From Chlorobiaceae bacterium (GTDB lineage: Bacteria > Bacteroidota > Chlorobiia > Chlorobiales > Chlorobiaceae), in NCBI GenBank assembly GCA_013334965.1, contig JAAXWO010000005.1, positions 1-64,000 of the forward strand: a stretch of 64,000 bases of DNA, written 5' to 3'. A program made the position numbers and the translations under genes. Below are positions 4,721 to 28,420 of the stretch, piece after piece. The stretch's first letter is position 1. The number at the start of each line of letters is the position of its first letter. The notes beneath the pieces are model-generated. The model was not told the DNA's origin. It made no database searches and saw only the letters and a program-made list of their open reading frames with translations.

Positions 4721-4893
4721 AACGAGAGGTACAAATATTTAGCGCCTGAAAAAATGGAGGTCAATCAACTCGCCTGAAAATTTCGAGAAAGCTTCAGCAA
4801 CGAACCCACCAGCAGATACGCCATTACATCTAATATTTAAAATTACTTAACATCACTCAACAACCACGCTCAGCATATAGTTTCTGTATACGT

Positions 4894-4902
4894 ATTATAA
4901 CA
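4894..4902 (-). promoter_or_regulatory. Candidate extended -10 promoter of the adhesin gene
   Basis: On the minus strand this reads TGTTATAAT, an extended -10 (TGnTATAAT) about 175 nt upstream of the adhesin ATG. No good -35 was seen at the normal spacing, as is common for extended -10 promoters. Inference from sequence only. Confidence 0.3.
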
Positions 4903-5269
4903 AAATAATGATGTAAAACCCACATTATTCATATAATATATATATGACTCAGGCAAGAATAAACATTTTATAGCGTATCTATAAGTAAAAAAGAACGTTA
5001 CAAACTTAATAAACGAGTTTCTGATTGCAAACGCATGATACAACGCGTATTAATGACGTATTAGTATTCATATGCGACCAAAGTCATATCCAGATAAATT
5101 GCAAAAACAATAAAAGTTGAATATGCATCGCATGAAAACCGGTGCTTTTTCAGTGTTCGCGGCATGCCACTGGATAGTTTATGTCAAATACGGTCTGGGG
5201 ATTGCACGCAGGGAAATGGATTTGACCTGTCAGGGATAATTCGTTGTGATCTTGATCAGCATAAACAGC

Positions 5270-5296
5270 AAAAACCCGGACAATGCCGGGTTTTTT
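5270..5296 (-). terminator. Rho-independent terminator downstream of the RTX gene
   Basis: AAAAACCCGG, loop ACAATG, CCGGGTTTTTT: a stem flanked by A and T runs, so it can work in both directions. It lies about 30 nt past the stop of the minus-strand RTX gene. Confidence 0.8.
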
Positions 5297-5325
5297 AGCG
5301 CTTCAATTCTCTTGTTTCCTGCACT

Positions 5326-6581
5326 TCACCATATCGACCCGACCACAAAGTCTGAACTGTCTATCGTCGGAGTACCTGCAAGAACCACAAAAACGACGGC
5401 AACGGCTCCATCGCCATTTCCATCGGCATCATAAGCAAGTGTATGCGCCCTGGCATTGTAGATGATACGGGTATCAGAGGTCTCCTGGCCCTTTAGTGCG
5501 AATTGAGCCGCCTCGATGGTTCCATCAATGCCAATCCCAACACCTGTACATATGGCTGGATCGAGTTGAATCTGGTCTTCGACATGATTGAAATCAGTAA
5601 TCCTGTCTACATTGGTGACTGAGTCCAGTGGGGTATTGAAAATAAAATCGTCATAACCGGTGCCACCAGTGAGGGTGTCATTGCCCCATCCGCCCGCAAG
5701 AAAATCGTCCCCTGATCCACTATTCAGCTTATCGCTCCCTCCATCGACCTCAAATGAACCCGTTGTAGTAGAGTTCTCGATTGACAAGGCGTCACCAAAA
5801 AGAAAGTCATTACCATCGCCACCCTTGAGGTTATCGTCTCCAAGATGGTAAATCGCGTCTCTGGAAAGGCTTGAGTTCCACCTTAAGAGATAAACGGCAT
5901 CCCCGCATAAAAGGTCGTCCCGATTCCCTCCCTGAAGATCATCGTTACCGAAAAAAAATTCGCCATGATACCCATATCCGAGATCTCCAATGAGTACGTC
6001 ATCCTGGTCACCGCCATGCAATGTATCGTCACCCAGATGATATCTGGCATTGCTGTCCCACTCATTGCCCAATATGCAGGAATCATCGTAGATCTCGTCA
6101 CTACCATCATCGCCATTCAGGGCGTCGCCGCCGAAAAGTAGTCACCCAGGCTTTGGCAGGACTGGTAACGCTCTTCGACAGGCAAATCAGGATGGAAATC
6201 GTACCATCAGGTAATATCGGTATCGATGTCACCAGAGATCAGGTCATCCCCTTCACCTCCGGATATCCTGTCATACCCAAAAGTTATGGATGCTCCTGTA
6301 GCAGCATCAGCATACAAGGTATCGCCAAACAGGAAATCACTGTCAGCGCCACCCTGGATTTTGTCGCCCCCAAGGGTTATGCTCATACCAGGTCGAGCCA
6401 GATATCCTGGGGTGAAATCCGGGGGCCAGTCAGCTTGAAAGATCAACCCATTATCATAGCCGTCGCCTAACAACAAATCGATACCTGAGAACGCTTTAAT
6501 GTTATCAGCACCTGTAGTTCCATAGAGATAGTCAGCACCGTGCGTCCCGCTGATGTTGTTGTAAGCTGGTTTTGCAGGCAT
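5326..6581 (-). pseudogene. RTX (haemolysin-type) calcium-binding protein, interrupted
   Basis: Many glycine/aspartate nonapeptides (GGDQDDVLIGD, GGDGNDFLFGD, GGWGNDTLTGG) form calcium-binding beta-roll repeats of a type I secreted protein. The start at 6581 (MPAKPAYNN) has GGAG 7-8 nt upstream. The frame stops at TGA (6207-6209). Reading through gives sensible sequence until an A4 run at 6134-6137 (T4 on the coding strand), where one missing base shifts the frame. With that base restored the text reads ...LGDYFFGGDALNGDDG and joins the downstream part, which ends at 5326 after a typical C-terminal DxIxDFNHVEDQI module. The two lesions split one protein of about 420 residues. They may be real decay or sequence error. 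No type I secretion genes are nearby. Confidence 0.8.
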
Positions 6582-7500
6582 GAAACGCTCCGTTTGATTA
6601 ACGTAACGGATCAAAACATGGACTTTCGATACTCCAACGAATTTACTCCACCAACACTACGACACCACTGCTTGTCAGTTTACAATGCAACACTGACAAG
6701 CTCCTCACTGAATTTGCCTCAACTGATGAGCAATAAAATTACCATTCCCATGGATGGTGTCAACGGTAGAAAATCTTATTGCTGCCAAAGTCAAGATTGG
6801 AGACGCCTTACACCATCGAATTCAAAATCGTTACGCGGAGCTGCATTGACATCAACAACGTCAATCAGCCTGGGCCAATGCGTCTGAACATGGCAACATT
6901 CGATTAACAGCTGGAATTGCTCAAAAACAAGGTACCTGTTCTATTGAAAGAATCGATTTCAAACCCGATGGCGATTTCGATCTGAACAATTCACATGATA
7001 GGTTGTATCCTTTCTCCTCACTCTCAGGCTTATCAGTGAATTCAGAGGTTAAATGCAACCAGAGAAACTCGTTCGCTTGCTGATTCCGGAGAATACAGAT
7101 AGCCCATCGGGCGTATCCAAGGATCTGCTCAGCTCAAAATGTATCTACTCATTGAAAACTTGCGCTGGTATATCTAAACAAAGGGCTCTTACTGAATGTG
7201 ATAATCAAATAGTTTATTCCTGATATTTTCGCCCAGGAAATACCGAATAGAAAAAAAAAAATCTGACGATATTTGACGAGTAGATACCATCGCAAAGCAA
7301 GCTATAACGTATTTTTGTTATCTCGACATACGCCTTAAACAGGATGTTTTGGATCAGGTGCTTAATTTGTGTAGAAAGTGCATTATATATTACCTGATCA
7401 TAATCTATAAAAGCTTGTAGAGCAACCTTTAAACTGCCTTGATTACGTCTCACCGAACCAATTGGATCCAGAAGAGCCTCAAATTCCGTATTTCAGGACT
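6582..7500. other. Gene-poor region upstream of the RTX pseudogene
   Basis: About 0.9 kb without a convincing gene. Short frames exist on both strands (for example 7214-7453 minus), but none has a recognisable family or a ribosome binding site that I could identify. The composition is more AT-rich than the flanking SbcC region and the segment may hold decayed sequence. The RTX gene's promoter should lie at its left side. Confidence 0.5.
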
Positions 7501-8091
7501 ATGAAAGCTTTTATCAGAATTTTCCTGCTGTTTGTCGTCATCGCAAGCGGACTGAGCGCTACTCTTTATCTCGGGCTCGGTGCGCTGGTATCGCTTCACT
7601 CCTCCAAACCTGAAAAGGCTGATGTTATCGTTATCCTTGGCGGTGATGGTGGGCTCAGGGTCAAAAAAGGGGCCGAACTCTACAACGCCGGGTATGCAGG
7701 CAACATCCTGCTGACAGGAATCGACAGCCGCTATTACCGCCCAACCCACCCGAACTGGCGCGAGCGAAAGCTCATGGCGCTCGGTGTGCCGAAAAAAGCG
7801 ATAAGCGTCGACATCTGGTCTGAAACGACCTGGGAGGAGGCTGAAAACGCCACAGAGACCATGGAAAGAAACGGCTGGAAAAAAGCGATCGTCGTAAGCG
7901 ATCCGCCGCACATGCTCCGCCTGCATCGAACATGGAAAAAGGCTTTTGCTGGTTCTTCGAAACAATTCATCCTGATCCCGACAAAACCGGAGTGGTGGAA
8001 CGCCCTGCTCTGGTGGGAAAACAGCACAAGCTTCAGGTTCGTCGTGAGCGAAATCAAGAAAAACCTCTTCTACTCAATACTTTATTATTGA
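7501..8091 (+). CDS. YdcF/SanA-like DUF218 protein
   Basis: 196 residues from ATG 7501, which has AGGA about 6 nt upstream; an earlier in-frame ATG at 7462 lacks support. One N-terminal membrane helix (about residues 4-28) is followed by a DUF218 domain that starts with DVIVILGGDGG and contains the AELYNAGYAGNILLTG stretch usual for the family, and an SETTWEEA segment. DUF218 proteins such as SanA and YdcF are inner-membrane-anchored, with a Rossmann-like domain; they affect envelope barrier function and cell-wall metabolism, but their biochemical activity is uncertain. It is convergent with sbcC, 37 nt away, with no obvious terminator between them. Confidence 0.82.
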   Translation: MKAFIRIFLLFVVIASGLSATLYLGLGALVSLHSSKPEKADVIVILGGDGGLRVKKGAELYNAGYAGNILLTGIDSRYYRPTHPNWRERKLMALGVPKKAISVDIWSETTWEEAENATETMERNGWKKAIVVSDPPHMLRLHRTWKKAFAGSSKQFILIPTKPEWWNALLWWENSTSFRFVVSEIKKNLFYSILYY

Positions 8092-8128
8092 GTTTCGCCC
8101 CCCGGCCAAACAACCGTCATCAGGCCGG

Positions 8129-11100
8129 TCATGAAAGCCCGGCAACCCCCGGTCCGCTGATGGAGCTGCGGCCCCCGGTAAGGGGAGAGACGTGGATCTG
8201 GGTCGCGATGCGCTCCTTGAGAGCCGGAACATGCGAAATGATACCGATAAGTTTCCCCGTCTGTTGCAGGCCGGAGAGGGTTTCGAGAGCTGTTTCAAGA
8301 GCCTCTTCGTCGAGAGTACCGAAACCTTCGTCGAGAAAGAGGGAGTCGACCCTTACGTTTCGACTCGACATCTGGGAAAGACCGAGAGCGAGGGCAAGGC
8401 TCACGATGAAACTCTCCCCGCCGGACAGGTTCCTGGTCGAACGCACCTCACCCGCCTGCCACTGATCGATCACGCTGAGCTCAAGCGGGTCAACCTGGTC
8501 ACGAACGAGTAGGTAGCGCTCGGTCATGCCCACAAGCTGTCGGTTGGCATGGGCGATCATGATCTCAAATGTGAGCCCCTGGGCAAAGTTGCGGAATTTC
8601 TTGCCGTCGGCTGATCCGATAAGGTCGTGAAGAATATCCCACCGCCGACATTCGGATTTCTGCGCCTCGACGGCCAACGCCTTTTGACGCTGCTCCCCGA
8701 CCGCATGTTCGTTCTCTTCAATCTGGCGGGCAATGGCGCCCATCTCTGCCCTGACGTTTCGAAGCCCCTCCTGGAGCTGTGCGATTCGAACCGCAAGATC
8801 TTCGAGGGACATTTCAGTGAGTCTCCGTTGGCGCTTTTCACCGAGCCTCGACATTCGATCGTTCCGTCTTGAATCGATATCGAGAGATCTCCTGACGAGT
8901 TCAGCGGAGATATTTTCGATCCGTTCCCGTTCCGGTTCCGGAAGGCGTGCTTCGAGAAAGGCCGTTTCATCAGAAAATCCCTTCTGCTGAAGTTCTCCTG
9001 CAAATGCCGCCAGGAGTTGATCGAGTAGCTTCCGCCGTTCATCGATGGCCTTGCGCAACTCCCCTGCCGCCGTATCGACAACGTGAAGCTCCTGGCGAGC
9101 CCAGGCCCTTGCTTCACCGGCTTCCTCGACACCAGCCCGCAATTCATGTACGACGGTTTCAAGACGATCCTCTTCGGCATCTGGGTCTCTGGCTCCAAAA
9201 AGGCTGAGGCGTTCGCCCCTGTCTGCATCAATTCCTTCGGAGAGAGTTGAAAGCACTGTGTGCTTCAACGTCCGATCGCGTCCGATGAGTTCAAGTTGAG
9301 AGTCGAGGTTCTTCAGTGCCGCTCTCCCTGAGAGCAGTGAGCTTTCCAGAGTGCTGCCGCGATCGGCTTCGAGTTGCCAACGGGCCGCCCTGGCAGCAAG
9401 AGCCCCTGCATAGGCATCAGGATCGACAAGCTCCCCATCGACAGCGCCGTAGGGTTCGAGCTTCGCGAGCAACGATCGCCTCCTTGCTTCAAGCTCTCTT
9501 CTGGTCGCTTCCCGCTCCTGTTCGAGACGCTGAAGCTCACCATGGAGTGTCCGGCAACGTTCAACAACCTGTTCAAGACGCCGCTCATCGGCAGTTACGG
9601 AATCCTGAAGTTGTAACAGGGCTGCGGCGTCAACACTCATGCGCTCTTCGGTTGTTTCGAGGCTTTCAATCCTGACGAGGAACTCACCAAGCCTGGCTTC
9701 GGCCTCCTTGAGTTCCAGAAGCACGGCAGGTTCAGCCTCACGGGCATGATCCGGAATTCCTGCAGCCTTGAGCAGTTCGAGACAGCGGCGTCCTGATTGT
9801 TCACGCATATCGACGAGATCGCTCCTCCGTTGCATCATCTGTTCGATCTCTTTGCCGCACTCAGCGATTACGATCTCAAGGTTTTTTAGCGCTCCGGCAT
9901 GCTCATGGAGCGATTGTTTCGCTAGCAGAAGCTGTTGATCGTCACTCTCCGGTAAAGAGCCTGTTGGTTCGCAATAGGGATGGGTGATCGAGCCGCAAAG
10001 AGGACAGGGAGTGCCATCGGTAAGCCGGAGGCGTTCCTCTTCGAGGTCACGAACCCTTGCTGCAAGCCTGCCAAGTTGCTCCTGTGCAGCCGCTTCCCGC
10101 TCGGCCATGGCCAAAAGCTGTCGTACATGAACGAGCTGCGCCTCCGTCCCGGCCCGTTTATCCAGGACAACCCGGATACTCTCGTCGATTCGGGTGATTT
10201 TCGGTAAGAGTTCCTTCCCCGAAGCATAAAGGGCCGCGATCTCCTCAAGCAGACTGATTCGCTCCTTCACCCCTTCGGCAGCCATTCGCAAGGATTTGAG
10301 GGATCTCCCCGCGAGCTGCGATTCATAAGATTCCCTGAGAGCGTCAAGAGCCTTGCGAGCCTCCTCAAGCTTCGATTTCGACACAGCCACTTCCGGTTCA
10401 AGGGCCTCTTTTTCTCGCTGCCGCTCATGAAGTGCCCGATTCGCCTCGAAGACAGCAGCAACTGCGAGCGCCTCCCTTCGGGCTGCAGGACGCAGTTCGT
10501 CAAGGGCATGCTGAATACCTGACAACCCTGTGACAAGGTCGGCATCGACACGATGCTCCTCCTGCCATGTTCGCAGATCGTGCAACGAAGTCGACACGGT
10601 TTCAAGGAGGGCTGCCGTGGAGAGGCGATCGCTTTCGAGCTGCAAGAGACGCTTGTCAAGCTCTTCGAACTCCAGCTTTCTGAGGTCGCGATCAACGATC
10701 TTTTCGGAAATGCGTGAGTCAAGCTGCCTGACCTGTGTAATGATGGGCCTGAGGGCTGCTGCGGCCTCAAGCGCCGATCTGAGATCGCCCTCGACAGCCT
10801 CGAATCGGGCTTCCGCTTCCGAGAGGGTAGCCTGCAACCCGGGCAGAAGCGACTCCCTGGCGAAGAGGTCGTTCAAGTAACGCTGTAGCTCGTCCCGTTG
10901 AATCGACACATGAACATAGCGATGTTCAATGGCTGCTGCATTTCCGGCAAAAACAATCCGGTTCGCATCTGGCCGGAACGCCTCCTTTTCAGCAAGGATA
11001 GCCGAAGCCTCGAGATCGATGCCGGCAAGCTCCTCTTCAAGCCTCGAGATCTCCTGGAGCCAGCGCAGTTCCGCCGAAGCTTTGTCAGCCTGAAGGGACA

Positions 11101-11803
11101 GCTCCTTCTCGTTTTCGAGGCGCTGGATATGATCGAGTTCAAGACGTTTCAGCTCTTCGGCTCCAAGCAGCCGCACGGAGTCGCTTTCGGCCTGAAGCAG
11201 CTCCAGCTTCGAACGCTCGGCCCGCTGACGTTCGTGAACCTTCATGGAGATCGTCGAATAGATCTCCGTACCGGTAATCTGTTCGAGAACGGGAGCCCTG
11301 CGATCCGGCTCCGCCTGCAAAAATGCAGCGAAACCACCCTGGGCGAGAAGCATGGAGCGGGTGAACCGGTCGAAGTCCATGCCGGTTCGCTCCTCGATCG
11401 CCCATAGGGTTTCCTGGACTTTCGCCTGTATGACCAGACCGGTGGAGAGGTCGGAAATTTCGTGTTTCTGCGCCTGAAGGTCCCCTTCCGGGCGCCGCCG
11501 CGAGCGGTGCTGGCTCCAGCGACAGCAGAAAGTGCCAGCTGAGGTCGAGAAGATGACTTCGGCGAAACATTCACCGGTATGACGCGACATCAGTTCGTTG
11601 CCGCTTTTGGTGATTTTGCCCAACCTCGGTGTCTGGCCGTAGAGAGCCAGGCAGATCGCATCGAGGATCGTGCTCTTGCCGGAACCGGTCGGACCGGTAA
11701 TGGCGAAGATCCCGTCCGAAACGTACTCGGGCCTGGTGAAATCGATCGACCACTCGCCCGTGAGGGAGTTGAGGTTTTTGAACTGGAGCCTGAGAATTTT
11801 CAT
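8129..11803 (-). CDS. sbcC: Nuclease SbcCD, ATPase subunit SbcC
   Basis: 1224 residues from ATG 11803, which overlaps the sbcD stop as ATGA. SMC/Rad50-like layout: Walker A GPTGSGKST at residues 37-44, long coiled-coil arms rich in E, L and R, a central zinc hook CPLCG, a second coiled coil, then the ABC signature LSGGES and Walker B LFLDEGFGTLDE near the C-terminus. With SbcD it cuts hairpins and protein-blocked DNA ends, and in other bacteria removes cruciforms left by replication of inverted repeats. The translational coupling with sbcD fits 1:1 assembly. The length is slightly above that of E. coli SbcC (about 1050). Confidence 0.95.
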   Translation of the reverse strand: MKILRLQFKNLNSLTGEWSIDFTRPEYVSDGIFAITGPTGSGKSTILDAICLALYGQTPRLGKITKSGNELMSRHTGECFAEVIFSTSAGTFCCRWSQHRSRRRPEGDLQAQKHEISDLSTGLVIQAKVQETLWAIEERTGMDFDRFTRSMLLAQGGFAAFLQAEPDRRAPVLEQITGTEIYSTISMKVHERQRAERSKLELLQAESDSVRLLGAEELKRLELDHIQRLENEKELSLQADKASAELRWLQEISRLEEELAGIDLEASAILAEKEAFRPDANRIVFAGNAAAIEHRYVHVSIQRDELQRYLNDLFARESLLPGLQATLSEAEARFEAVEGDLRSALEAAAALRPIITQVRQLDSRISEKIVDRDLRKLEFEELDKRLLQLESDRLSTAALLETVSTSLHDLRTWQEEHRVDADLVTGLSGIQHALDELRPAARREALAVAAVFEANRALHERQREKEALEPEVAVSKSKLEEARKALDALRESYESQLAGRSLKSLRMAAEGVKERISLLEEIAALYASGKELLPKITRIDESIRVVLDKRAGTEAQLVHVRQLLAMAEREAAAQEQLGRLAARVRDLEEERLRLTDGTPCPLCGSITHPYCEPTGSLPESDDQQLLLAKQSLHEHAGALKNLEIVIAECGKEIEQMMQRRSDLVDMREQSGRRCLELLKAAGIPDHAREAEPAVLLELKEAEARLGEFLVRIESLETTEERMSVDAAALLQLQDSVTADERRLEQVVERCRTLHGELQRLEQEREATRRELEARRRSLLAKLEPYGAVDGELVDPDAYAGALAARAARWQLEADRGSTLESSLLSGRAALKNLDSQLELIGRDRTLKHTVLSTLSEGIDADRGERLSLFGARDPDAEEDRLETVVHELRAGVEEAGEARAWARQELHVVDTAAGELRKAIDERRKLLDQLLAAFAGELQQKGFSDETAFLEARLPEPERERIENISAELVRRSLDIDSRRNDRMSRLGEKRQRRLTEMSLEDLAVRIAQLQEGLRNVRAEMGAIARQIEENEHAVGEQRQKALAVEAQKSECRRWDILHDLIGSADGKKFRNFAQGLTFEIMIAHANRQLVGMTERYLLVRDQVDPLELSVIDQWQAGEVRSTRNLSGGESFIVSLALALGLSQMSSRNVRVDSLFLDEGFGTLDEEALETALETLSGLQQTGKLIGIISHVPALKERIATQIHVSPLTGGRSSISGPGVAGLS

Positions 11804-13044
11804 CCGGCCTCCCCCGCTTCGCTCATGACATCCTCTTCGTCGATCGAGCGGAGCACCTCGCGGTAGCAATCAATCAGGGTGGGCTGAAGCGACCCGTCAG
11901 TCCCCCGGGCATCGAGGCAACGCATGAATACCGCTTCAGGATCGAGCTGTTCGAGCGTCTCCTCTTCGCTTCTCTGTCCGAGCGCCTCATGAACCGTCCG
12001 CTTGCTCCGGATACGCCTGATTTCAAGGAATGAACCTTCAACTGCCTCTTCGAGCGCCTGCTGTACGGCCGACGCCGGCTCGTCACCCCTGTATTCGATT
12101 TCAAGCCATGCCGAACTTCCTGAAGCCCTGAGGGCAAGAATGGATGCGGTCAGTTCGTCAAGAGTTCCGGCAAAACGTTCGAGCGGCTGGAAACAGGGCA
12201 CAGGAATCTCCGTTATCCGGGGAATCCTGCCATCGAACTCAACCTGAAGAACCAGCTTGCGCTGGCCTGATTCGCCGAACCCCATCGGGATAGGCGAACC
12301 GCTGTATCGACGATGCTCAGCCCCGCCAACCTTCTGCGCGACGTGCAGATGGCCGAGCGCAACATAATCGATGGCTTCGGGAAAAGCCGACGCTCCTATC
12401 CGGGCAAGCGATCCGACATAAATCTCACGGACGCCGTCACCATCGACCGTGGTGCCGCCGGCTGCGAAAAGATGCCCTGTTGCAATGACGGGAATCCCGA
12501 CTCCGATATTTTTCCGATGCTCTTCGGCAATCCTCGTGACCTCTGCATAATGGCGCGCAACGCCCTCGACCAGCTTGCGGTTCTTGTCCTCCATGCTCTC
12601 CCCCGGCTCGACGGTCCGGATATCGCGGTCCCGGAGATATGGCACGGCACAGACTATGGCTTCCGGGTTACCCTGCGTGTCCTTGAGAACCAGCACTTCA
12701 ACCTCCGGCTTGCCGGTCGCTGCGCCGAGGACATGCACGTTGAACGAGAGCAGGAGATCCCTTGGTGCGTCGAGAAAGGTAGGCGAATCATGGTTGCCGC
12801 CCGTCACGACCACATGACGGCACGAAGAGCGGAAAAGCCTTTCAAGGAAACCGTAATAGAGCTTTTGCGTGGAGTTGGCCGGAGTGGTGGTATCGAAAAT
12901 ATCACCCGCCACGATCAGGGCATCGATGCCTTGCGATACAATGAGCCCCGAAAGCCAGTCGAGGAATGCCTCGAACTCCAGGAAACGGCTACGACCATAG
13001 AGGTTGCGGCCAAGATGCCAGTCTGATGTGTGCAGGATTTTCAC
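11800..13044 (-). CDS. sbcD: Nuclease SbcCD, nuclease subunit SbcD
   Basis: About 414 residues from GTG 13044 (VKILHTSDWHLGRN), chosen because family members begin at this strand; the frame stays open upstream to 13164, with residues that look non-homologous. Metallophosphoesterase motifs are in order: DWH at about 8-10, GDIFD, GGNHDS, and GHLH. These bind the two Mn ions of the Mre11-type nuclease. The C-terminal cap is typical of SbcD. It forms an operon with sbcC (4-nt overlap). Confidence 0.93.
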   Translation of the reverse strand: MKILHTSDWHLGRNLYGRSRFLEFEAFLDWLSGLIVSQGIDALIVAGDIFDTTTPANSTQKLYYGFLERLFRSSCRHVVVTGGNHDSPTFLDAPRDLLLSFNVHVLGAATGKPEVEVLVLKDTQGNPEAIVCAVPYLRDRDIRTVEPGESMEDKNRKLVEGVARHYAEVTRIAEEHRKNIGVGIPVIATGHLFAAGGTTVDGDGVREIYVGSLARIGASAFPEAIDYVALGHLHVAQKVGGAEHRRYSGSPIPMGFGESGQRKLVLQVEFDGRIPRITEIPVPCFQPLERFAGTLDELTASILALRASGSSAWLEIEYRGDEPASAVQQALEEAVEGSFLEIRRIRSKRTVHEALGQRSEEETLEQLDPEAVFMRCLDARGTDGSLQPTLIDCYREVLRSIDEEDVMSEAGEAG

Positions 13045-19778: not shown

Positions 19779-20936
19779 TTATCCAATCTTTTCAGCACCG
19801 CTGATGATGGCAGCCACGAGCTTGTCGATAGTGGCATCGTCCATCAGCACCGGGATGTTCAGGCAGATGCTGCTCTGAAGAAGCTCGCCGGTTTTCGGCC
19901 AGAGTTCTTCGAGGTTGACGTCGCGGTAACGGTCGTATGCCTTGAGCAGGTGGCCCCAGATGGAAGCATAGTGCCAGTCGATGGCTTCCGGCAGGATCTT
20001 TGTGCCGAACCCGCTCTCCATGAGATGCGCCTCGAACTGCAGGGCAGTCTGGCGGTCACGCAACTTGAAGATGAGCGTATCGCCCTGTGCTCCATCCTCG
20101 TCAGCGAACGGCCTCATCATGAGGTTGTCGAGGTGGCTGATGCGATCCTTGATCCTGTATTTGTTCTCTCTGGCCTTTGAAAGGATGTAGTCGATCTTGG
20201 CGAGCTGTGCGATGCCGATAGCGGCAGTTACTTCGCTCAGGCGATAATTGAGGCCTTTGGCACGCCTCGGGTCCTTGCCCCGGGGAAGCCCCGGCACATG
20301 CATGTGGCCGTGGTCGGAGAATTCCGCCACACGGTCATAGATATCCTTGTCATCGGTGACAATGATACCACCCTCACCGACATGCAGGGTCTTTCCGGCG
20401 TCGAAAGAGAACGAAGCGACCTTTCCGATGGTTCCGAGCTTTCGTCCCTTATATGTTGCACCGAGCGCCTGTGCAGCATCCTCGATGAGCATGATGCCGT
20501 GGCGATCGCAGATATCCGCAATCTCGTCCATCTTCGGCGGAGCCCACATGGGAATGGCTACGATGGCTTTCGTTTTCGGAGTGATGGCCTTTTCCACCTC
20601 TTTGGGATCGAGATGGTAGGTTTCGTCAATCTCAACAGGCACAGGTACGGCGCCAAGTGCAGCTGCGGCTTCGACAGGCGCGATAAATGTCCATGCGGTC
20701 GTAATCACCTCATCGCCCGGACCGACGCCTGCACCGGCAAGCGCGCAGTGGATGGCTGCAGTGCCGGAGGAAACTGCGTGCGCATATTTGACGCCCATAT
20801 AAGAGGCGAACTTCTCTTCAAACTCCCTCGCCTTGTAATTGCCCGGGGCATATCTGTACAGGGTGGTTTTTTCCCTGCTGAACAGCTCCTGGATCTGGGC
20901 CAGCTCTTCGCGGCCTATAAGTTCAGCTCCTGCCAT
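19779..20936 (-). CDS. DegT/DnrJ/EryC1 aminotransferase, KdnA-like
   Basis: 385 residues with AGGAGAA upstream of the ATG. PLP-dependent sugar aminotransferase fold: SSGTAA phosphate-binding loop near residue 56, Asp153 (IEDAAQ) for the pyridine nitrogen, and Lys182 in FDAGKTLHVGEGG as the likely Schiff-base lysine. The family adds amino groups to keto-sugars. With the neighbouring iron-type dehydrogenase and CMP-sugar synthetase, the best-fitting role is the KdnA step of 8-amino-3,8-dideoxy-Kdo synthesis, as in Shewanella. That assignment is inference from gene company, not from a database search. Confidence 0.8.
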   Translation of the reverse strand: MAGAELIGREELAQIQELFSREKTTLYRYAPGNYKAREFEEKFASYMGVKYAHAVSSGTAAIHCALAGAGVGPGDEVITTAWTFIAPVEAAAALGAVPVPVEIDETYHLDPKEVEKAITPKTKAIVAIPMWAPPKMDEIADICDRHGIMLIEDAAQALGATYKGRKLGTIGKVASFSFDAGKTLHVGEGGIIVTDDKDIYDRVAEFSDHGHMHVPGLPRGKDPRRAKGLNYRLSEVTAAIGIAQLAKIDYILSKARENKYRIKDRISHLDNLMMRPFADEDGAQGDTLIFKLRDRQTALQFEAHLMESGFGTKILPEAIDWHYASIWGHLLKAYDRYRDVNLEELWPKTGELLQSSICLNIPVLMDDATIDKLVAAIISGAEKIG

Positions 20937-21017
20937 GGTATAAAGTTCTCCTTGTTTATTATTCCATTATCTGGTTCTCTTTTCCATTCCGTCCATAACG
21001 TCCATTCAGCTCCCGAG

Positions 21018-22148
21018 TCACGTCAACGCATTGATGACGATCCTGGCTGACTCTTCAGTGAATTCAACTGGATTCCCTGCGAACGAACCGGACAATGCCA
21101 TGGAGGCTGCGCGGGCCAGTTCATCCATATTGCCTTTTCCATAGCCGTAAGGGGCGAGGTTGGGAATTTCGAGCTGACGATACAGCGCATCCATCTGATC
21201 GAGAAGTTCTGCGGTCGATTCCCGGGCTGAAAGATCACTCCGCATCGGATTGAGCAACGCGTACTTGTCGTAACCGTTGTCAAAATTGTAGCGCATCACC
21301 TCCTTGAGGAAAATAGCGCCAGCCAGTCCATGCGGCACCTTCTGCTTGACGCCGAGATAGTATGCGAAACCGTTGGTAGGACCGTCACCCGAGTTCATGA
21401 GCGCCGTGGTCCCGCAAACGCTGCCGATTGCCAGGTCGAGACGGGACTCTGCCCGATCGAGCTGCCCCTGCTGCAATGCGTAAAAGGTTCGCTGGAAACC
21501 TTCTATCGAAAAAATGCGGCTTATCGGCGTATGCTTGACGGAACCGAAACTGTCGACGCAATGCACGAGGCTGTCCATGGCCGAAGCGATCACGCTTTCC
21601 ATTGGAGCGCTCATTGAAAGATTAGGGTCGATGACAGATTTCTTCGGAAAGTTTTTCCGGCTGTTGATGCCAAGTTTGCGGCCTTCGGCCTCATCGATGA
21701 AAACGGCATTGAAACTGACCTCGGCACCGCTACCGAGCAGGGAGGGTACGGTAATGAGCGGTACAGGATCGCTGACATCCTTTGGAAAACCCTTGAGGGA
21801 GAGAGCCGGAACATTGTTGGTCATCAGCAGGGCGACGCCCTTGCCAAGATCGATGGTGCTCCCGCCTCCGATAGCCACCAGGCCGTCCGGCGATTCACGA
21901 CGGAAAAATTCAGCGACGTTTTCAAGGTGTGCGTAGGTCGGTTCCCCCTTGAACTCATTGCAGTAAATGACGCTGTTGGCATACCCTGCATTGATGTTGC
22001 GCAACACGTCCTGGAAATAAAAGCTCCCGGTGAGGCTCGCGTCATAGATGATCCCCGGTTTCTTGACGCCGAGCGACTGCAAGTGCTCATGCACCGAGAG
22101 GGCTTCGTTGACCCCGATGCACAGGTCGGTAGACAGGAAGAAGTTCAT
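21018..22148 (-). CDS. Iron-containing alcohol dehydrogenase, KdnB-like
   Basis: 376 residues from ATG 22148 (MNFFLSTDLC); the frame runs upstream to 22205 without homology. Group III Fe-ADH features: GGGSTIDLGKG dinucleotide loop at residues 94-104, metal ligands Asp192 and His196, and His273 (VPHGLAGA). By my alignment to FucO the fourth ligand position (14 before His273) is Asn259 instead of His. KdnB of Shewanella, also of this family, oxidises the C8 hydroxyl of Kdo to the aldehyde. This gene lies directly upstream of the aminotransferase (81-nt gap), as expected for a paired oxidise-then-aminate step. Other sugar or alcohol substrates remain possible. Confidence 0.78.
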   Translation of the reverse strand: MNFFLSTDLCIGVNEALSVHEHLQSLGVKKPGIIYDASLTGSFYFQDVLRNINAGYANSVIYCNEFKGEPTYAHLENVAEFFRRESPDGLVAIGGGSTIDLGKGVALLMTNNVPALSLKGFPKDVSDPVPLITVPSLLGSGAEVSFNAVFIDEAEGRKLGINSRKNFPKKSVIDPNLSMSAPMESVIASAMDSLVHCVDSFGSVKHTPISRIFSIEGFQRTFYALQQGQLDRAESRLDLAIGSVCGTTALMNSGDGPTNGFAYYLGVKQKVPHGLAGAIFLKEVMRYNFDNGYDKYALLNPMRSDLSARESTAELLDQMDALYRQLEIPNLAPYGYGKGNMDELARAASMALSGSFAGNPVEFTEESARIVINALT

Positions 22149-22205
22149 GTTATGATTGTTGTCTTTGGTTAACGTTCGATCAGCCAAAAGATGCCGGCCG
22201 ACCAT

Positions 22206-22709
22206 CTTCAGGTATCGTAAAACTTATTTATTAAATAGCTTTTGGCTTGATAGAGCATTCCGGTGAGAGAGGGCTGAGATTTCGGTCATGCAACAGGAAA
22301 AACAAAGCCCCGGAAATACAAGCCAGGGCTCTCATCTCGTGATTTAATATAGGCGTCTTGGCTTGCAAAAAAAAGCCTCTGAAGCCGACAGCGAAGGCGA
22401 TGTGTTCGATTGATGCGGAATCGGCACTCCCCTCTCCCGTTATTTTGATCTCACCATGAGCCGTGTTGCGACATCGGACGTGACCGCTGATCCTGAAGCT
22501 GCTGCGTGAGACCAATAAAGAGCTGCCTGATCCTCTATCCTTAGAGACATAAATGAAACTGCGCAACGACGGGCCCAGGTGGTCCGTCAACCCTCCAAAA
22601 CAAAAACCCCGGTAAGTTCCAGGGCTTTTTGCATTTAAACAAGTCTTGTCAGCTATGCTTGCTACTGCGTCAAGGGGATCAAGCCGATCCTTGCAGTGCG
22701 TTCACTTCT
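22206..22709. other. Intergenic region with two similar terminator hairpins
   Basis: No confident protein. A minus-strand frame at 22231-22590 is not recognisable. Two hairpins with the same core (GCCCTGG...CCGGGG then T-rich on the minus strand) lie at about 22311-22337 and 22598-22624. A small untranslated RNA between them on the minus strand is possible. Confidence 0.4.
22593..22631 (-). terminator. Terminator downstream of the small membrane protein gene
   Basis: On the minus strand: AAAAAGCCCTGG, loop AACTTA, CCGGGGTTTTTG. Stem with one mismatch and a T run, about 80 nt after the stop of the gene ending at 22710. Confidence 0.6.
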
Positions 22710-22925
22710 TCACTTTGCGAGGCGACGCGATACCTGCTTCTTTTTTTTATGCGAAACAAACGCGGCAAGAGCAGCGAAACATGACAGAACGCCCACACCG
22801 TACCATATGGCGTACGATGTTAACAAGTATCCCGTCTCGTCTGCCAGAGCTACTGCACCAACACCGAACACCGTACTCAGGAACAGGGCGAAAAAAACAA
22901 GAATGATCTTTGTTGAGTCAATCAT
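22710..22925 (-). CDS. Small two-helix membrane protein, unknown
   Basis: 71 residues. Two hydrophobic helices (about 7-27 and 37-58) with a short loop (ADETGYLLTSY), then a basic tail KKKK. No family recognised. Support for a real gene: the membrane topology with a positive-inside C-terminus, a downstream terminator on the same strand, and its place within a minus-strand envelope block. Against: no visible Shine-Dalgarno. Confidence 0.5.
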   Translation of the reverse strand: MIDSTKIILVFFALFLSTVFGVGAVALADETGYLLTSYAIWYGVGVLSCFAALAAFVSHKKKKQVSRRLAK

Positions 22926-23279
22926 ATCTGAAAAACAGGGGGTTCATTTACAGACTCTTAAAGAAGAGAAACTACTTTGATACAACATCACCAATATACA
23001 CATTCCCATACACAAAACGCCTAATAAATTTAACATAAACGCATATACAACATACGTTTATCGCCTCACCGCGAATACATATGCGACATATCTTTCCGGA
23101 GAGAACGCAACGGTGACGTGTTCATGAGTCCGACACCCCGGGGGATGTCCTGTGTACAAAGCAACATGCTTCCAGAAATATTTTCTCAACGACGAAGACT
23201 GAAAAACAAGCCATGCACATAATGAAACATGGAGCGGAATCCCCAGGCGGATACCCGCCACTGATCCCGCATCATCCAG
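22926..23279. other. Intergenic region
   Basis: About 350 nt between the cytidylyltransferase stop and the small membrane gene. AT-rich on the left side (22975-23060). A minus-strand frame at 23058-23261 has no recognisable family. No riboswitch was confirmed. Confidence 0.45.
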
Positions 23280-23975
23280 TCAATCGTTTCCGGCCAACCC
23301 TTTTTTTCTCATATAATATTCAACGAGATCGATCTCCTCAATGGTGTCGATCTCCCATGTCTGCCAGAACTCCATGGGATAGGCTGACAGCTTCTCACCT
23401 ATTCGATTGTTGAACTTACGGAGCACCTCGGGAGTAAACATGTAGATCGATCCGTTTTCGATGTACTGTGAGGGACGATCCTGTCGCATCCCGCGGTTAC
23501 GGTAATCGAAATTCACGCTAGCCCACGCCCCGTTCCGCTGCTCCCATATGGTCAGGTCATCTGCCCTGGTGACCGAAATCAGCGAATCCGCGCCCTCGCT
23601 CCTGAAAAGCTCGATGGCGCGATCGATGTCGCCCTGTTTACGCAGGGGCGAAGTCGCCTGCAGAAAAACGACCGTTTCAGGTTCTACGCCGTACTTCCGG
23701 CTGATAACCTCAAGCGCGTGCGATATGGCTGACTCCGAGGTCGCCTTGTCGCCGCTGATCTCCCCTGGCCTGTCGATGACCTCTGCCCCATACGTAAGGG
23801 CTACCCCGGCAATGTCCGGATCATCCGTAGTCACGAAGACCCGATCGACATGAATGGCAGCAAGGGCCTGTTTTACGCTCCATGCAAGCAGCGGCAAGCC
23901 TGACAGCGGATAGATATTCTTGTTCTTCAAGCCTTTGGATCCGCCCCGGGCAGGAATGATGGCTACCGTCCGCAT
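23280..23975 (-). CDS. CMP-sugar cytidylyltransferase (acylneuraminate/Kdo type)
   Basis: 231 residues; GAGG lies about 10 nt upstream of the ATG. Opens with the CTP-binding signature [15 protein letters not shown], then TTDDPDIAG, and [10 protein letters not shown], which is typical of NeuA-type synthetases; GSIYMF is also present. It would activate a 3-deoxy-ulosonic acid as the CMP-sugar for transfer into LPS or another glycan. Together with the aminotransferase and dehydrogenase genes downstream, the substrate may be an amino-Kdo rather than sialic acid; no sialic or legionaminic acid synthase (NeuB) gene is in the window. Confidence 0.85.
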
Positions 23976-24028
23976 TCAGGTTTTCCTCTGTTTCAGTGTT
24001 AAGGGTTGCTCTATGCCATTGCCTCTGC

Positions 24029-24985
24029 TCACCCGTCGATCACCTGTCGGCAGACATCGGCGATCTTCCGTGCTGCCGATTTGTTCTGCAGCGGGGTAAG
24101 CGCCTTGAGGTGATCCGGTTCAAGCCCGCAATAAACAGGCTTGTTCAAAGCAGATCCGACAAAGATCGTCGAGGAGAACTGTGCGATCATCATCCGGGAA
24201 TTGGCGATCATCTCTTCGGTCTTCCCTTCGGAAAAAACCAGGCTGCCCGGCGCATAAAGGTTTATCTCACGGGTCGCCCGCTCTACATTTTCGTTCGGAT
24301 GCAGCTTGAACAGGAGTTGGCGGCCGTTTGCCATCTCAAGATACTTTTCGATGTTCTTCCGGCGATTTTCGTAGATGAATGTCTCCCTGTTGTCTGAAGT
24401 GCAGACCAGGACGTAATCGCTATGCTCGAAATCGTTGACAAGGTAGCGTTCACAGTTGTCGAAGTTTGGAATGCTGGTCACCTCTATCTTGGAAGGGTTT
24501 ACCCCCTTGCGGACGAAAAGTTCACGGTATCCGTCGCTGGCAACGCAGAACTTCTCATAGGTGTCGGACAAACCGGTGGTCGATGTGCCGGCAATCCATC
24601 TCGGCACCCATCGGAAGTTTCTTGCCAGATGGAACAGGATGGTTTCCGGTTCGGTCATCCCCTCCTGTACGAGGACAATTTTACGCCGTTTGATGTGCCT
24701 TGGCACTATAAGGTCGGTGCAGGTCACCACCAGGTCGTATGGATGCGTTGCGCCTCCGATGTCGATCTGGAGGTTGTTCGTGACTAGGTAGTCGATGGAG
24801 CGGCCCGCCCGCTTCTTGCCCATGATGGTAAACTCGAGCATGCCGAGCTCACTCGCCTTTCCGAGCAGACCGTCACTGAAGAAGGGGGTGAACCATTGAT
24901 CATAGTCGCCGAGATGCTCCGAGATCTGGTGCATCTGGGTGGTCTGATTCATCGAGCCACAGACAAAAAGTATTTTCTTCTTCAT
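24029..24985 (-). CDS. GT-B-like transferase of surface polysaccharide type
   Basis: 318 residues. Begins KKILFVCGSMNQTTQMHQIS, a Rossmann start; the second half has LLFKLHPNENV followed by a SRMMIAQFSSTIFVGSALNKP segment, as seen in CDP-glycerol glycerophosphotransferases and capsule-type transferases. Its ATG overlaps the stop of the upstream membrane protein gene (ATGA at 24982-24985), and 53 nt separate it from the CMP-sugar synthetase, so all three are likely one operon. It is a candidate for transferring the CMP-activated sugar. No exact family is assigned. Confidence 0.6.
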   Translation of the reverse strand: MKKKILFVCGSMNQTTQMHQISEHLGDYDQWFTPFFSDGLLGKASELGMLEFTIMGKKRAGRSIDYLVTNNLQIDIGGATHPYDLVVTCTDLIVPRHIKRRKIVLVQEGMTEPETILFHLARNFRWVPRWIAGTSTTGLSDTYEKFCVASDGYRELFVRKGVNPSKIEVTSIPNFDNCERYLVNDFEHSDYVLVCTSDNRETFIYENRRKNIEKYLEMANGRQLLFKLHPNENVERATREINLYAPGSLVFSEGKTEEMIANSRMMIAQFSSTIFVGSALNKPVYCGLEPDHLKALTPLQNKSAARKIADVCRQVIDG

Positions 24986-26046
24986 GCGCCCTCTTCTGTA
25001 ACTTGTTGCGCATCCTGGAGATGAATTCCCTCCATGAACATCACTCCGTAACCTATGGAGTACCAGACAACCTCTTTAAGGCGACGCAACAGGACAAATG
25101 CCCCACCATAGACGAGGTAATCGGGCATGCCGATGGCATGGAAAAAAGCGAGATATCCAAGGTCCTGGATGCCCAGGCCGGATGGGATAAAAAAGAATAT
25201 CGCCCTGAGCATGACGAGCGCCGTATCAAATGCGAGTACCTGAAAAAAGGTGACCTTGAGACCCAAAAGAGACAAGATAAGGTAGCTTTCGAAGGCAAGC
25301 ATCAACCATGCTGCTATGTAGATGGCAATCACAGGCAGAAGGCTGAAAAAACCATCTGATTTCACCCTATGGAGCTTACGGTCGGTTTCGATAAATCCGT
25401 CCTGTTTGCTGAGGAGCCACTCCCTGACCCTTGTAAAAGGCACTTTCATCAGGAGTCGATGCAAATTCTGTACCGAGTTGCCGTTGGTCATCAGCAGCAG
25501 CAGAAGAAGAAAAACAAGCATGATCGTAGCCCCCGCCAGAACCATGATGATTCCGAGACCGCCGAACCCGATAACCTTGACCGAAGCCTCCTGAAGCATA
25601 ACGAAGCCGGCTGCGGCGCCGAGAAGCGTGTATATCCCCTGGGTCATGCCAAGGAGAAGCTTGCGGACAGCCGCACTGGCAAATCCGTCAGGAATCGGTA
25701 TACCGAGGAACCTGCGACAAAGCAAAGGCCTGAGAGGCTCGCCAACAGCGACACCTGCAGGTAAAGTCATTGAGACCGTCTCGGAAACGACCTGAATCTT
25801 GAAAAGCCTGAAAAAGGAGACCTGTTTCGGACCGGACGGAAAAAGCCTGCGCCACGCCTCGGTTTCAAGCAAATGAAGAAACAGGTAGGGCAAGGGGATC
25901 AACAGCGAAGACACACCTATCGATCCGATAAGCCTGGCCGAACTTTGAAGGTCCACCTTGCTGAACAGGTAACCGATGAGAATGAAACCGACCAGAAGGC
26001 CGACATATCCCGGCCACTTCTTCGCGGCTTTTTTTTCTGTCTGCAT
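24982..26046 (-). CDS. YbhN/MprF-type flippase-like membrane protein
   Basis: 354 residues with about eight membrane helices and no catalytic domain. Belongs to the lysylphosphatidylglycerol-synthase transmembrane family (YbhN, AglD, HpnL relatives): LPAGVAVGEPLRPLL in the middle, and the conserved PSGLGIQDLGYLAFF near residue 305. Members are thought to move lipids or lipid-linked sugars across the inner membrane. It is the first gene of the minus-strand envelope operon, which suggests movement of a glycolipid made by the downstream genes (inference). Confidence 0.78.
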   Translation of the reverse strand: MQTEKKAAKKWPGYVGLLVGFILIGYLFSKVDLQSSARLIGSIGVSSLLIPLPYLFLHLLETEAWRRLFPSGPKQVSFFRLFKIQVVSETVSMTLPAGVAVGEPLRPLLCRRFLGIPIPDGFASAAVRKLLLGMTQGIYTLLGAAAGFVMLQEASVKVIGFGGLGIIMVLAGATIMLVFLLLLLLMTNGNSVQNLHRLLMKVPFTRVREWLLSKQDGFIETDRKLHRVKSDGFFSLLPVIAIYIAAWLMLAFESYLILSLLGLKVTFFQVLAFDTALVMLRAIFFFIPSGLGIQDLGYLAFFHAIGMPDYLVYGGAFVLLRRLKEVVWYSIGYGVMFMEGIHLQDAQQVTEEGA

Positions 26047-26590: not shown

Positions 26591-28420
26591 ATGGGACTCA
26601 TCAATCCTGATTTTCAGACTTTGCCGGAACTGTTCACTTCGGTGTTCACCCATTTCAGGGGGCAGAGCGACAAGTTCCCTATCTCACGAAAAATAAACGG
26701 ATCCTACAAGTCGATAAGCTACGACTCGCTTGAAGAGGACTACCGGAACCTTGCCGCTTACCTTAAGCACGAAGGCATCGAGCCGGGCGACAGGGTGGCG
26801 ATCCTCTCCGAAAATCGTCCCGGATGGTACCTCTCCGATATGGCGATACTCTCCGTCGGCGCCATCAATGTTCCCCTTTACCCTTCCCTGCCCCCAAACC
26901 AGATCGAATACATCCTGAACAACTGCAGCGCCAAGGGAATCGTCGTTTCCAACATGCTGCAGCTCGGTAAAATATTGTCCATCTGGCAGAACCTTCCGGA
27001 TCTGAACCTTGTGATCGTCATGAACAAGCTCGAAGAGCCGATGGAGGATGTCATTGATCTGAACCAGGCAAAAGATGAGGGAAAAAAGGACCTCCATGAG
27101 AAGCCATGGTTGCTGGAAGGCATCAAGATCGAACCGGATGATATTGCGACCATCATCTACACTTCGGGAACGACCGGACTGCCCAAAGGCGTGATGCTGA
27201 CCCACAAGAACATCTGTGAAAACGTCAAGTCCTGCTCCACGGTCATCCGTATCGACGAAACCGACAGCTGCCTCTCCTTCCTGCCCCTTTCGCACGCTTA
27301 CGAACGCACCGGAGGCTACTACCTCATGTTCTCCTGCGGCGCCCAGATCTACCTTGCCGAAAGCGTTGAAACCATCTCGCTCAACATCTCCGAATCGAGG
27401 CCTACGATCATCTTCACCGTTCCAAGGCTTTTCGACCGCATGAAGACAAGCATCCTCAAGGCTGCTACAAGCGAAGGCGGCATGAAACAGAAGATCTTCT
27501 TCTGGGCAATAAGAACGGGAGAAAAGTACTTCAAGCAGCTCAACGAAGGAAAGGTGTCATCCGTTGTGAGCATGCAGTATGGATTGGCAGACAAACTGGT
27601 GTACCACAAAATCAACAAGAAGTTCGGCGGCAGGCTACGCTATTTCGTTTCGGGAGGAGCCGCTCTGCCGCAGAAAACCGGGGAGTTCTTCCAGGCGCTC
27701 GGCATCACGATCCTCGAAGGGTTCGGCCTTACCGAAACATCACCCGTCACGCATATCAACAGGCCCGACAAGGTCAAATTCGGCACGGTTGGACCGCCGG
27801 TCAAAAACGTGGAGATCCAGATCGCTGAAGACGGCGAAATCATGCTCAAGGGCCCCAACATCATGAAGGGGTACTGGAAAGATGAAGCTGCATCTGCGGA
27901 AGTCCTGAAAAACGGATGGTTCTACACTGGCGACATCGGCGAGATCGATGCCGACGGATACCTGAAGATCACCGACCGGAAAAAGCATATCATCGTGACC
28001 TCCGGCGGCAAGAACATCGCTCCCCTGCCCATCGAAAACCTGATCCTCGACAGCCCGTTCGTGGACCAGGTCATGATCGTCGGAGAGAAAAAGCCGTTCC
28101 TGATCGCACTTATCGTGCCTGACTACCAGAAGCTGAAAGAGTTCGCCGCCGAGCACAAGATCACGGCTACGACCAACCGTCAGCTCATCGACAACAAGGA
28201 GATCGTCCAGATTTTCGAGAAGCTCCTGAGAAACCTTTCCAGACAGCTCGCGACGCACGAGAAAGTCCGGAAGTTCCTGCTGGTCGAAGAAGCGTTCACG
28301 TTGGAAAACGGGCTGATGACCCCAACCCTCAAGCTCAAGCGAAAGGAGATCATCAAGAAGTTCACCCCGGAGATCGACAATCTCTACAATGCGCTCAATA
28401 TGGTCTACAACACGGAGTGA
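26591..28420 (+). CDS. Long-chain acyl-CoA synthetase (AMP-forming)
   Basis: 609 residues. AMP-binding motif [13 protein letters not shown] near residue 187, [18 protein letters not shown], and [16 protein letters not shown] near residue 462. The size and layout match FadD15/FAA1-type ligases, which join CoA to fatty acids for lipid synthesis or recycling. No Shine-Dalgarno is visible, but the start fits the family length. It ends before a strong hairpin at 28525-28560. Confidence 0.92.

Follow-up and report, generated by a model that had tools for sequence, protein, structure and literature searches.

A conserved operon of Chlorobiaceae proposed to finish and attach a NeuB-derived amino-ulosonic acid

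The Chlorobiaceae carry a conserved five-gene operon that we believe finishes and attaches an amino-ulosonic acid derived from a NeuB-type synthase, a reading to which we give a probability of roughly 0.6. The operon was found in the window, by which we mean the whole 64,000-nucleotide stretch of DNA that was analysed. The best reading of its distribution is that the module installing the amino group of the NeuB-derived acid was replaced in place in this family by non-orthologous genes, apparently in one step. If so, an amino-ulosonic acid pathway, separate from that of LPS Kdo, would be universal in a whole family of well-studied phototrophs and would have been overlooked, and the KdnA family would reach beyond Kdo. 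The locus would also provide a clean case of an in-place swap of an amino-installing module for unrelated enzymes, a GT-B transferase family outside all Pfam and NCBIfam models, and candidate genes for the uncharacterised amino-glycolipid of 1991.

Layout and conservation of the operon

The gene group picked out by an earlier sequence-only reading is real, with five open reading frames that all lie on the minus strand. They encode a polytopic membrane protein with an LPG-synthase TM region, HpnL-like (24982-26046; PF03706), a transferase of predicted GT-B fold for which Pfam and NCBIfam hold no family (24029-24985), a NeuA/PseF-type CMP-ulosonate cytidylyltransferase (23280-23975; PF02348), an iron-type (group III) alcohol dehydrogenase (21018-22148; PF00465/PF25137), and a KdnA-like PLP aminotransferase of the DegT/DnrJ/EryC1 family (19779-20936; PF01041). 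The dehydrogenase frame may begin at 22205; the start used in homologues corresponds to 22148. The same order is kept in about 30 other Chlorobiaceae loci, across which the operon proteins are 52-95% identical, so the grouping is not a product of chance.

A 1.13-kb insert (22149-23279) interrupts the operon in the window, lying between the cytidylyltransferase and dehydrogenase genes, where the gap in most relatives is about 50 bp. The insert holds a 71-aa putative membrane ORF (22713-22925, minus strand), and no homologue of the insert was found in the loci fetched. A mobile element was considered and set aside, since the insert is present in a single copy within the genome and neither repeats nor inverted ends were found.

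Divergent from the operon, on the plus strand, lies a gene for a long-chain acyl-CoA ligase (26591-28420; PF00501). Its position beside the membrane-protein and transferase genes is kept in Chlorobiaceae and at loci L105, L109 and L110, several families in all. The ligase is a possible link to lipid, and its place in the pathway is conjectural. The membrane protein itself matches PF03706 (E 2e-27) and reaches 91.6 bits with the HpnL model, below the cut-off of 195.65; its gene adjoins that of the transferase both in Chlorobiaceae and in other families of the order. We propose that it acts as a flippase or acceptor-handling protein. Thymidylate kinase, NamZ and MFS genes beside the transferase in family f3 were dismissed as unrelated neighbours.

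The AlphaFold model of the transferase has a pLDDT of 89.9, and its Foldseek matches are GT-B proteins: TagF, a CMP-bound capsule polymerase, polysialyltransferase and UDP-GlcNAc 2-epimerases. Among these matches, 3l7l, 8a0c and 5wc6 score E values of 1e-8 to 1e-10 and TM scores of 0.5-0.6. The modelled fold is thus that of the CMP/CDP-dependent transferases TagF and polysialyltransferase, and we propose that the enzyme is a CMP-ulosonate transferase.

Affinities of the three sugar-modifying enzymes

Among characterised DegT enzymes the aminotransferase is nearest to KdnA. Its best PDB match is KdnA 5k8b (E 9e-78, the next best match being 2e-49), it has the KdnA-type signature (H211, H213, R219, G220, H322, W327 and H329) together with the PLP-lysine motif, and in an alignment 18 residues are common to it and the KdnA-type rows and missing from the outgroup. 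In the tree it forms, with its homologue from locus L097, a sister clade of KdnA (97/91). It falls outside the clade of KdnB-partnered KdnA proteins that includes 5k8b (86/99), a placement that calls for caution because of long branches. The kinship with KdnA suggested from sequence alone therefore survives as a KdnA-like enzyme with the signature residues, a sister and not a member of the KdnA clade proper. This sister relationship and the shared signature make an amino-ulosonic acid the likely product. A Desulfobacteraceae match (L037) was rejected as a relative, being an ordinary perosamine-type DegT enzyme without the trio, and a plasmid collection yielded no match to the dehydrogenase or to KdnA at strict limits.

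The other two members of the presumed KdnA/KdnB/KdsB trio fared less well. The dehydrogenase had been suggested as a possible KdnB, yet it is 21% identical to KdnB and 35% identical to the iron-type dehydrogenase of L097, and it lies outside the KdnB clade (FeADH3/cd08184) with 100/100 support. The His that serves as third metal ligand is replaced by Tyr, as it is in KdnB. The cytidylyltransferase, whose counterpart in that trio would be KdsB, proved to be of NeuA/PseF type. Its best NCBIfam model is TIGR03584 (PseF) at 110 bits, under the equivalog cut-off of 205.7; the KdsB model gives it 32.6 bits (cut-off 155.2), whereas the true KdsB encoded separately in the genome scores 196.6. Its best PDB matches are CMP-Neu5Ac synthetases (6ifd, 5.5e-38), as against 1.7e-6 for KdsB. 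Three proteins of the genome match PF02348, and only that of the operon is NeuA-type, the others being KdsB and an IspD-like protein.

These affinities bear directly on the strongest alternative, in which the dehydrogenase and the KdnA-like enzyme would oxidise and aminate Kdo at C8, and the transferase would add Kdo8N, activated as CMP-Kdo8N, to the LPS core. To our knowledge Kdo is the only characterised substrate family of KdnA, and the genome makes Kdo through separate canonical genes (KdsA, KdsC, KdsB and WaaA). With Kdo present in the cell and the nearest characterised aminotransferase acting on it, Kdo could still be the substrate. Against this stand a dehydrogenase that is not KdnB and a NeuA-type cytidylyltransferase in a genome that has a true KdsB; a canonical Kdo8N operon as first described is rejected, because both enzymes fail to group with their Kdn/Kds counterparts. 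True KdnA-KdsB-KdnB or KdnA-KdnB loci (L095, L096 and L098) also look different, and the transferase keeps company with NeuB, even in families that lack this KdnA (see below). Taken together, we regard the Kdo route as unlikely.

A NeuB-type synthase and an older module at the same locus

The case for a ready-made acid such as Kdo had leaned on the absence of NeuB. That absence is true of the window only, and the premise fails genome-wide, where a search finds NeuB on contig C13 (best model NeuB_NnaB, 247 bits against a strict NCBIfam cut-off of 400). The gene adjoins one for a HAD protein resembling KDN-9-P phosphatase, which scores 144.9 bits with that model (cut-off 180) versus 129.8 with KdsC and has 3e81 as its best PDB match. 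The KdsC on contig C15 scores the other way round (110.7 for KdsC and 67.0 for KDN-9-P phosphatase). NeuB is not a substitute for a missing KdsA, since canonical KdsA and KdsC are present. Two observations had been named as ones that would speak against an amino-Kdo cluster, namely enzymes outside the Kdn clades and a NeuB/NeuC-type pathway elsewhere. At least half of each has been found, with the dehydrogenase outside the KdnB clade, a NeuA-type cytidylyltransferase, and NeuB plus a phosphatase on another contig. That said, the location of the NeuB and HAD genes outside the operon in Chlorobiaceae, and scores for both that fall below strict NCBIfam cut-offs, count against a NeuB-derived sugar.

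Profiling of 247 genomes of the phylum found the transferase in 96 of them, 55 Chlorobiaceae and 41 others. Every one of the 96 has the ortholog of this NeuB, and only two genomes of the 247 carry that ortholog without the transferase. In the other families a single operon brings together the transferase, a cytidylyltransferase, a transketolase, a class-III aminotransferase, an SDR, a HAD protein, NeuB and an FA-hydroxylase. Of the 41 carriers outside Chlorobiaceae, 40 have the class-III aminotransferase and none has a clustered KdnA; of the 55 within the family, none has the class-III aminotransferase and 53 have a clustered KdnA. The remaining two, both Chlorobaculum genomes, were discounted as true KdnA lackers, their contigs ending within the operon. 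The SDR was sought at E 1e-30 in eight Chlorobiaceae; seven of these, the window's genome included, had none, and one had a 47% homologue. The transketolase of the older module is split, and it is missing from some operons of the older type (L090 and L093).

The older module thus has the transferase, HAD protein and NeuB in common with Chlorobiaceae, and in sister families the membrane protein and the locus as well; at L105 and L110 it occupies the syntenic site beside the acyl-CoA ligase, membrane-protein and transferase genes. It differs in having another cytidylyltransferase, the class-III aminotransferase and the SDR where Chlorobiaceae have NeuA, the KdnA-like enzyme and the iron-type dehydrogenase. 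Since the replacement would be a single event in one family, the mutual exclusion does not represent many independent cases.

Proposed pathway and known systems

We infer the following route, with its sugar, acceptor and flippase step, from what was observed: which genes are present and to which families they belong, the order they keep, how they co-occur or exclude one another, and where they fall in the trees. NeuB would condense a phosphorylated aldose with PEP, and the neighbouring HAD phosphatase would remove the phosphate, so that mannose-6-phosphate would lead to KDN. The dehydrogenase would turn the CH2OH end of this 3-deoxy-ulosonic acid into an aldehyde, which the KdnA-like enzyme would convert to CH2NH2, so that KDN would become 9-amino-9-deoxy-KDN. 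The NeuA-like enzyme would then form the CMP-sugar, the GT-B enzyme would pass the sugar on to an acceptor in the envelope, which may be a lipid, and the PF03706 protein would assist translocation. The product is possibly 9-amino-9-deoxy-KDN, and in any event we suggest an acid aminated at its terminus. In Chlorobiaceae the NeuA-FeADH-KdnA trio would have displaced a cytidylyltransferase-transketolase-class-III-aminotransferase(-SDR) set at the same locus, a set that in sister families would work with the same NeuB, phosphatase and transferase.

NeuB might instead act on ManNAc or ManNAc-6-P, the operon then producing a 9-amino or other modification of Neu5Ac. The best NeuB model (NeuB_NnaB) and a single UDP-GlcNAc 2-epimerase homologue fit such a sialic acid. 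That homologue, however, is WecB-like and of the non-hydrolysing type (WecB 166.8 bits, NeuC 47.9), the hydrolysing NeuC was not found in the genome, a supply of free ManNAc is accordingly hypothetical, and the HAD partner indicates a phosphorylated product, all of which makes an N-acetylated sugar improbable. It is more doubtful still that the KdnA-like enzyme and dehydrogenase act upstream and supply NeuB with an amino-aldose, as the older module's transketolase might also do: step order cannot be read from gene content alone and a split transketolase is typical of aldose supply, but KdnA homology indicates an ulosonic acid substrate and some older operons have no transketolase.

We know of no natural occurrence of 9-amino-9-deoxy-KDN and of no genes for the aminoglycosphingolipid of Chlorobiaceae. 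Neuraminic acid, which would be an isomer of 9-amino-9-deoxy-KDN, has reportedly been found in that lipid. Literature searches returned nothing relevant on nonulosonic acids in Chlorobi, on a transketolase/aminotransferase nonulosonate route, or on neuraminic acid in Chlorobium. The lipid, reported in Chlorobium limicola by Jensen et al. (1991, doi 10.1007/BF00262993, as cited in PMC11762602), is perhaps a product of these genes. A fuller and decidedly tentative version of the NeuB-derived pathway would have green sulfur bacteria make 9-amino-9-deoxy-KDN, a terminal-amino nonulosonic acid, and link it to a lipid of the membrane, perhaps the aminoglycosphingolipid just named. In this version two unrelated modules, class-III aminotransferase plus SDR and KdnA-like enzyme plus dehydrogenase, would have arisen to carry out the same amination, and one would have taken over the site of the other.

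The closest relatives found for the operon's aminotransferase and dehydrogenase belong to a NeuA-KdnA-FeADH set in a legionaminic-type cluster (L097, genome G131), which itself brings together genes for NeuB (full-length, 345 aa), NeuC, LegC, a PtmE-like protein and a methyltransferase. Leg, if made there, is a 9-methyl sugar, so the KdnA and dehydrogenase of that cluster may act on something else. The grouping of the two Chlorobiaceae enzymes with L097 involves long branches.

The KDN pathway of Bacteroides thetaiotaomicron consists of a KDN-9-P synthase, a KDN-9-P phosphatase and a CMP-KDN synthetase. The genome studied here likewise has a NeuB-type synthase beside a KDN-9-P-phosphatase-like HAD gene and a NeuA-type CMP synthetase, but with HAD and NeuB scores under the equivalog cut-offs, additional enzymes for oxidation and amination, and a CMP synthetase far from NeuB.

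KdnA, KdnB and KdsB make up the Kdo8N pathway of Shewanella (Gattis et al. 2013, doi 10.1074/jbc.M113.453324, as cited in PMC5125639). Both systems pair a KdnA-type aminotransferase with a group III alcohol dehydrogenase and a CMP-ulosonate cytidylyltransferase, and the KdnA signature residues and the Tyr-for-His change at the third metal ligand are common to the two. The Chlorobiaceae operon differs in the clade of its dehydrogenase and in having a NeuA-type instead of a KdsB-type cytidylyltransferase, and it adds a dedicated GT-B transferase, a membrane protein and a linkage to NeuB and its HAD partner.

Layout and conservation of the operon

The window is part of contig C9, in a 2.48 Mb genome whose relatives are Chlorobiaceae, Chlorobaculum being the nearest. 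The minus-strand cluster of five genes proposed in the sequence-only reading was borne out by open reading frames and Pfam families between 26046 and 19779. The run begins with a PF03706 membrane protein (24982-26046), followed by a putative transferase without any Pfam or NCBIfam family (24029-24985), a PF02348 cytidylyltransferase (23280-23975), a PF00465 iron-type alcohol dehydrogenase (21018-22148) and, last, a PF01041 aminotransferase (19779-20936). Gene-neighbourhood comparison found the same order and tight spacing in about 30 other Chlorobiaceae loci; the operon is real and conserved. A 1.13 kb insert between cytidylyltransferase and dehydrogenase (22149-23279) is unique to this genome and single-copy there. 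No repeats were found within it, and none of the fetched loci carries a homologue of its 71-aa putative membrane ORF (22713-22925, minus strand). The membrane protein-transferase pair has a conserved neighbour, a divergent long-chain acyl-CoA ligase (26591-28420 in the window), both in Chlorobiaceae and elsewhere in the order (loci L105, L109 and L110, from other families), hinting at a lipid-linked product.

An AlphaFold model of the transferase, built from 24 homologues (pLDDT 89.9), matches GT-B proteins including TagF, a CMP-bound capsule polymerase and a polysialyltransferase. The predicted fold fits a CMP- or CDP-activated donor, though UDP-GlcNAc epimerases match the model equally well, so that transferase activity is a presumption.

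Relationship to the Kdo8N enzymes

The operon had been likened to the trio KdnA/KdnB/KdsB, and only the aminotransferase upholds that likeness, in part. Among solved structures it comes closest to Shewanella KdnA (5k8b, E 9e-78; perosamine synthase is second at 2e-49), and it retains a KdnA-type residue set absent from the other DegT enzymes compared. In a maximum-likelihood tree, however, it falls outside the clade of 5k8b and KdnB-partnered proteins and groups, on long branches (97/91), with a protein of L097, a locus on contig C1 of another genome (G131). Both share an altered loop before the WH motif (GTK-x-L/I-P-E/D-A vs FYWY-like), which may reflect another substrate. The dehydrogenase is not KdnB: it is 21% identical to KdnB and 35% to the L097 dehydrogenase, and phylogeny excludes it from the KdnB clade with full support. 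Where FucO-type enzymes have His as the third metal ligand, it and KdnB have Tyr in common. Nor is the cytidylyltransferase KdsB: its match to CMP-Neu5Ac synthetases (5.5e-38) is much stronger than that to KdsB (1.7e-6). Of the genome's PF02348 matches, which otherwise consist of KdsB and an IspD-like protein, it alone is NeuA-type.

The nearest relatives found for the aminotransferase and dehydrogenase both belong to L097. That cluster (3172-12887) is of legionaminic type, with LegC, NeuC, NeuB and PtmE-like genes, and also carries NeuA, KdnA-like, methyltransferase and Fe-ADH genes. Elsewhere in the phylum, L096 and L098 combine KdnA with a KdsB-like gene and a KdnB-like dehydrogenase, as expected of genuine KdnA loci, and in L095 KdnA adjoins KdnB. 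Ten genomes of the phylum (L116, L118-L124, L126, L127) have KdnA-type aminotransferases with no KdnB, Fe-ADH or KdsB detectable nearby.

Linkage to NeuB and probable replacement of a module

The canonical Kdo genes lie apart from the operon, with KdsA and KdsC on contig C15, KdsB on C12 and WaaA on C20. The earlier preference for Kdo assumed that NeuB was absent, but a 289-aa NeuB adjoins a HAD phosphatase on C13; with these two genes and a NeuA-type cytidylyltransferase in the operon, that argument fails. The phosphatase scores higher as KDN-9-phosphate phosphatase than as KdsC, and the C15 KdsC shows the reverse. The best solved match of the HAD phosphatase is 3e81, the KDN-9-P phosphatase of B. 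thetaiotaomicron, although the deposited chain bears the name acylneuraminate cytidylyltransferase. The sole UDP-GlcNAc 2-epimerase homologue in the genome is WecB-like.

Among 247 genomes drawn across the phylum, 96 have the transferase, and all 96 have an ortholog of the C13 NeuB. Two carry NeuB without the transferase, and in one of them (G219) NeuB is near a contig end. At nine fetched non-Chlorobiaceae loci the transferase shares one operon with a distinct cytidylyltransferase, a class-III aminotransferase (GSA-aminomutase-like), an SDR, NeuB and an FA-hydroxylase-like protein, usually along with a split transketolase and HAD. L087 (8437-16583) and similar loci, in about 40 genomes, have the order GT-cytidylyltransferase-split transketolase-class-III aminotransferase-SDR-HAD-NeuB-FA hydroxylase. 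In both genomes of one family (f2), an endonuclease/exonuclease/phosphatase-family protein is added to the NeuB-HAD-SDR group (L085 11134-12006, L101 10383-11255).

The class-III aminotransferase is present in 40 of 41 non-Chlorobiaceae transferase carriers and in 0 of 55 Chlorobiaceae, and a clustered KdnA-like gene in 53 of 55 Chlorobiaceae (the remaining two contigs stop inside the operon) and 0 of 41 other carriers. The SDR was not found at E 1e-30 in seven of eight Chlorobiaceae tested, this genome included; the eighth has a 47% homologue. Within the order, two genomes of a sister family (L105, L110) have the older module of membrane protein, GT, cytidylyltransferase, transketolase and aminotransferase next to the same acyl-CoA ligase as is found beside the Chlorobiaceae operon. 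These opposite distributions are the pattern that non-orthologous displacement in place would leave; resting on one event in one family, they amount to strong genomic context rather than replicated evolution.

Proposed pathway and product

A free 3-deoxy-ulosonic acid would come from NeuB and the HAD phosphatase; with mannose-6-phosphate as the aldose it would be KDN. Its terminal alcohol would be oxidised by the iron-type dehydrogenase and the oxidised terminus aminated by the KdnA-like enzyme. The NeuA-like enzyme would then activate the aminated acid, and the GT, assisted by the membrane protein, would transfer the sugar. Terminal aldehydes are typical substrates of class-III aminotransferases, so the two modules could lead to an identical terminal amine. 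The acceptor may be a lipid, as lipid genes in the vicinity suggest: the acyl-CoA ligase here and, in other families, the FA-hydroxylase next to NeuB.

According to a passage in PMC11762602, an aminoglycosphingolipid from Chlorobium limicola was described in 1991 (Jensen et al.). Its tie to the operon is a lead, not evidence. The 1991 study reportedly found neuraminic acid in the lipid, and 9-amino-9-deoxy-KDN and neuraminic acid have equal mass. The open-access literature, outside which most subscription papers fall, yielded nothing on nonulosonic acids in Chlorobi; nor did open-access sources on a transketolase/class-III aminotransferase route to nonulosonic acids or on the product of an L087-type operon.

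The proposal of an amino-ulosonic acid is likely right in kind, but Kdo is a less likely substrate than a NeuB product. Kdo8N itself is a hallmark of Shewanella (PMC6357163).
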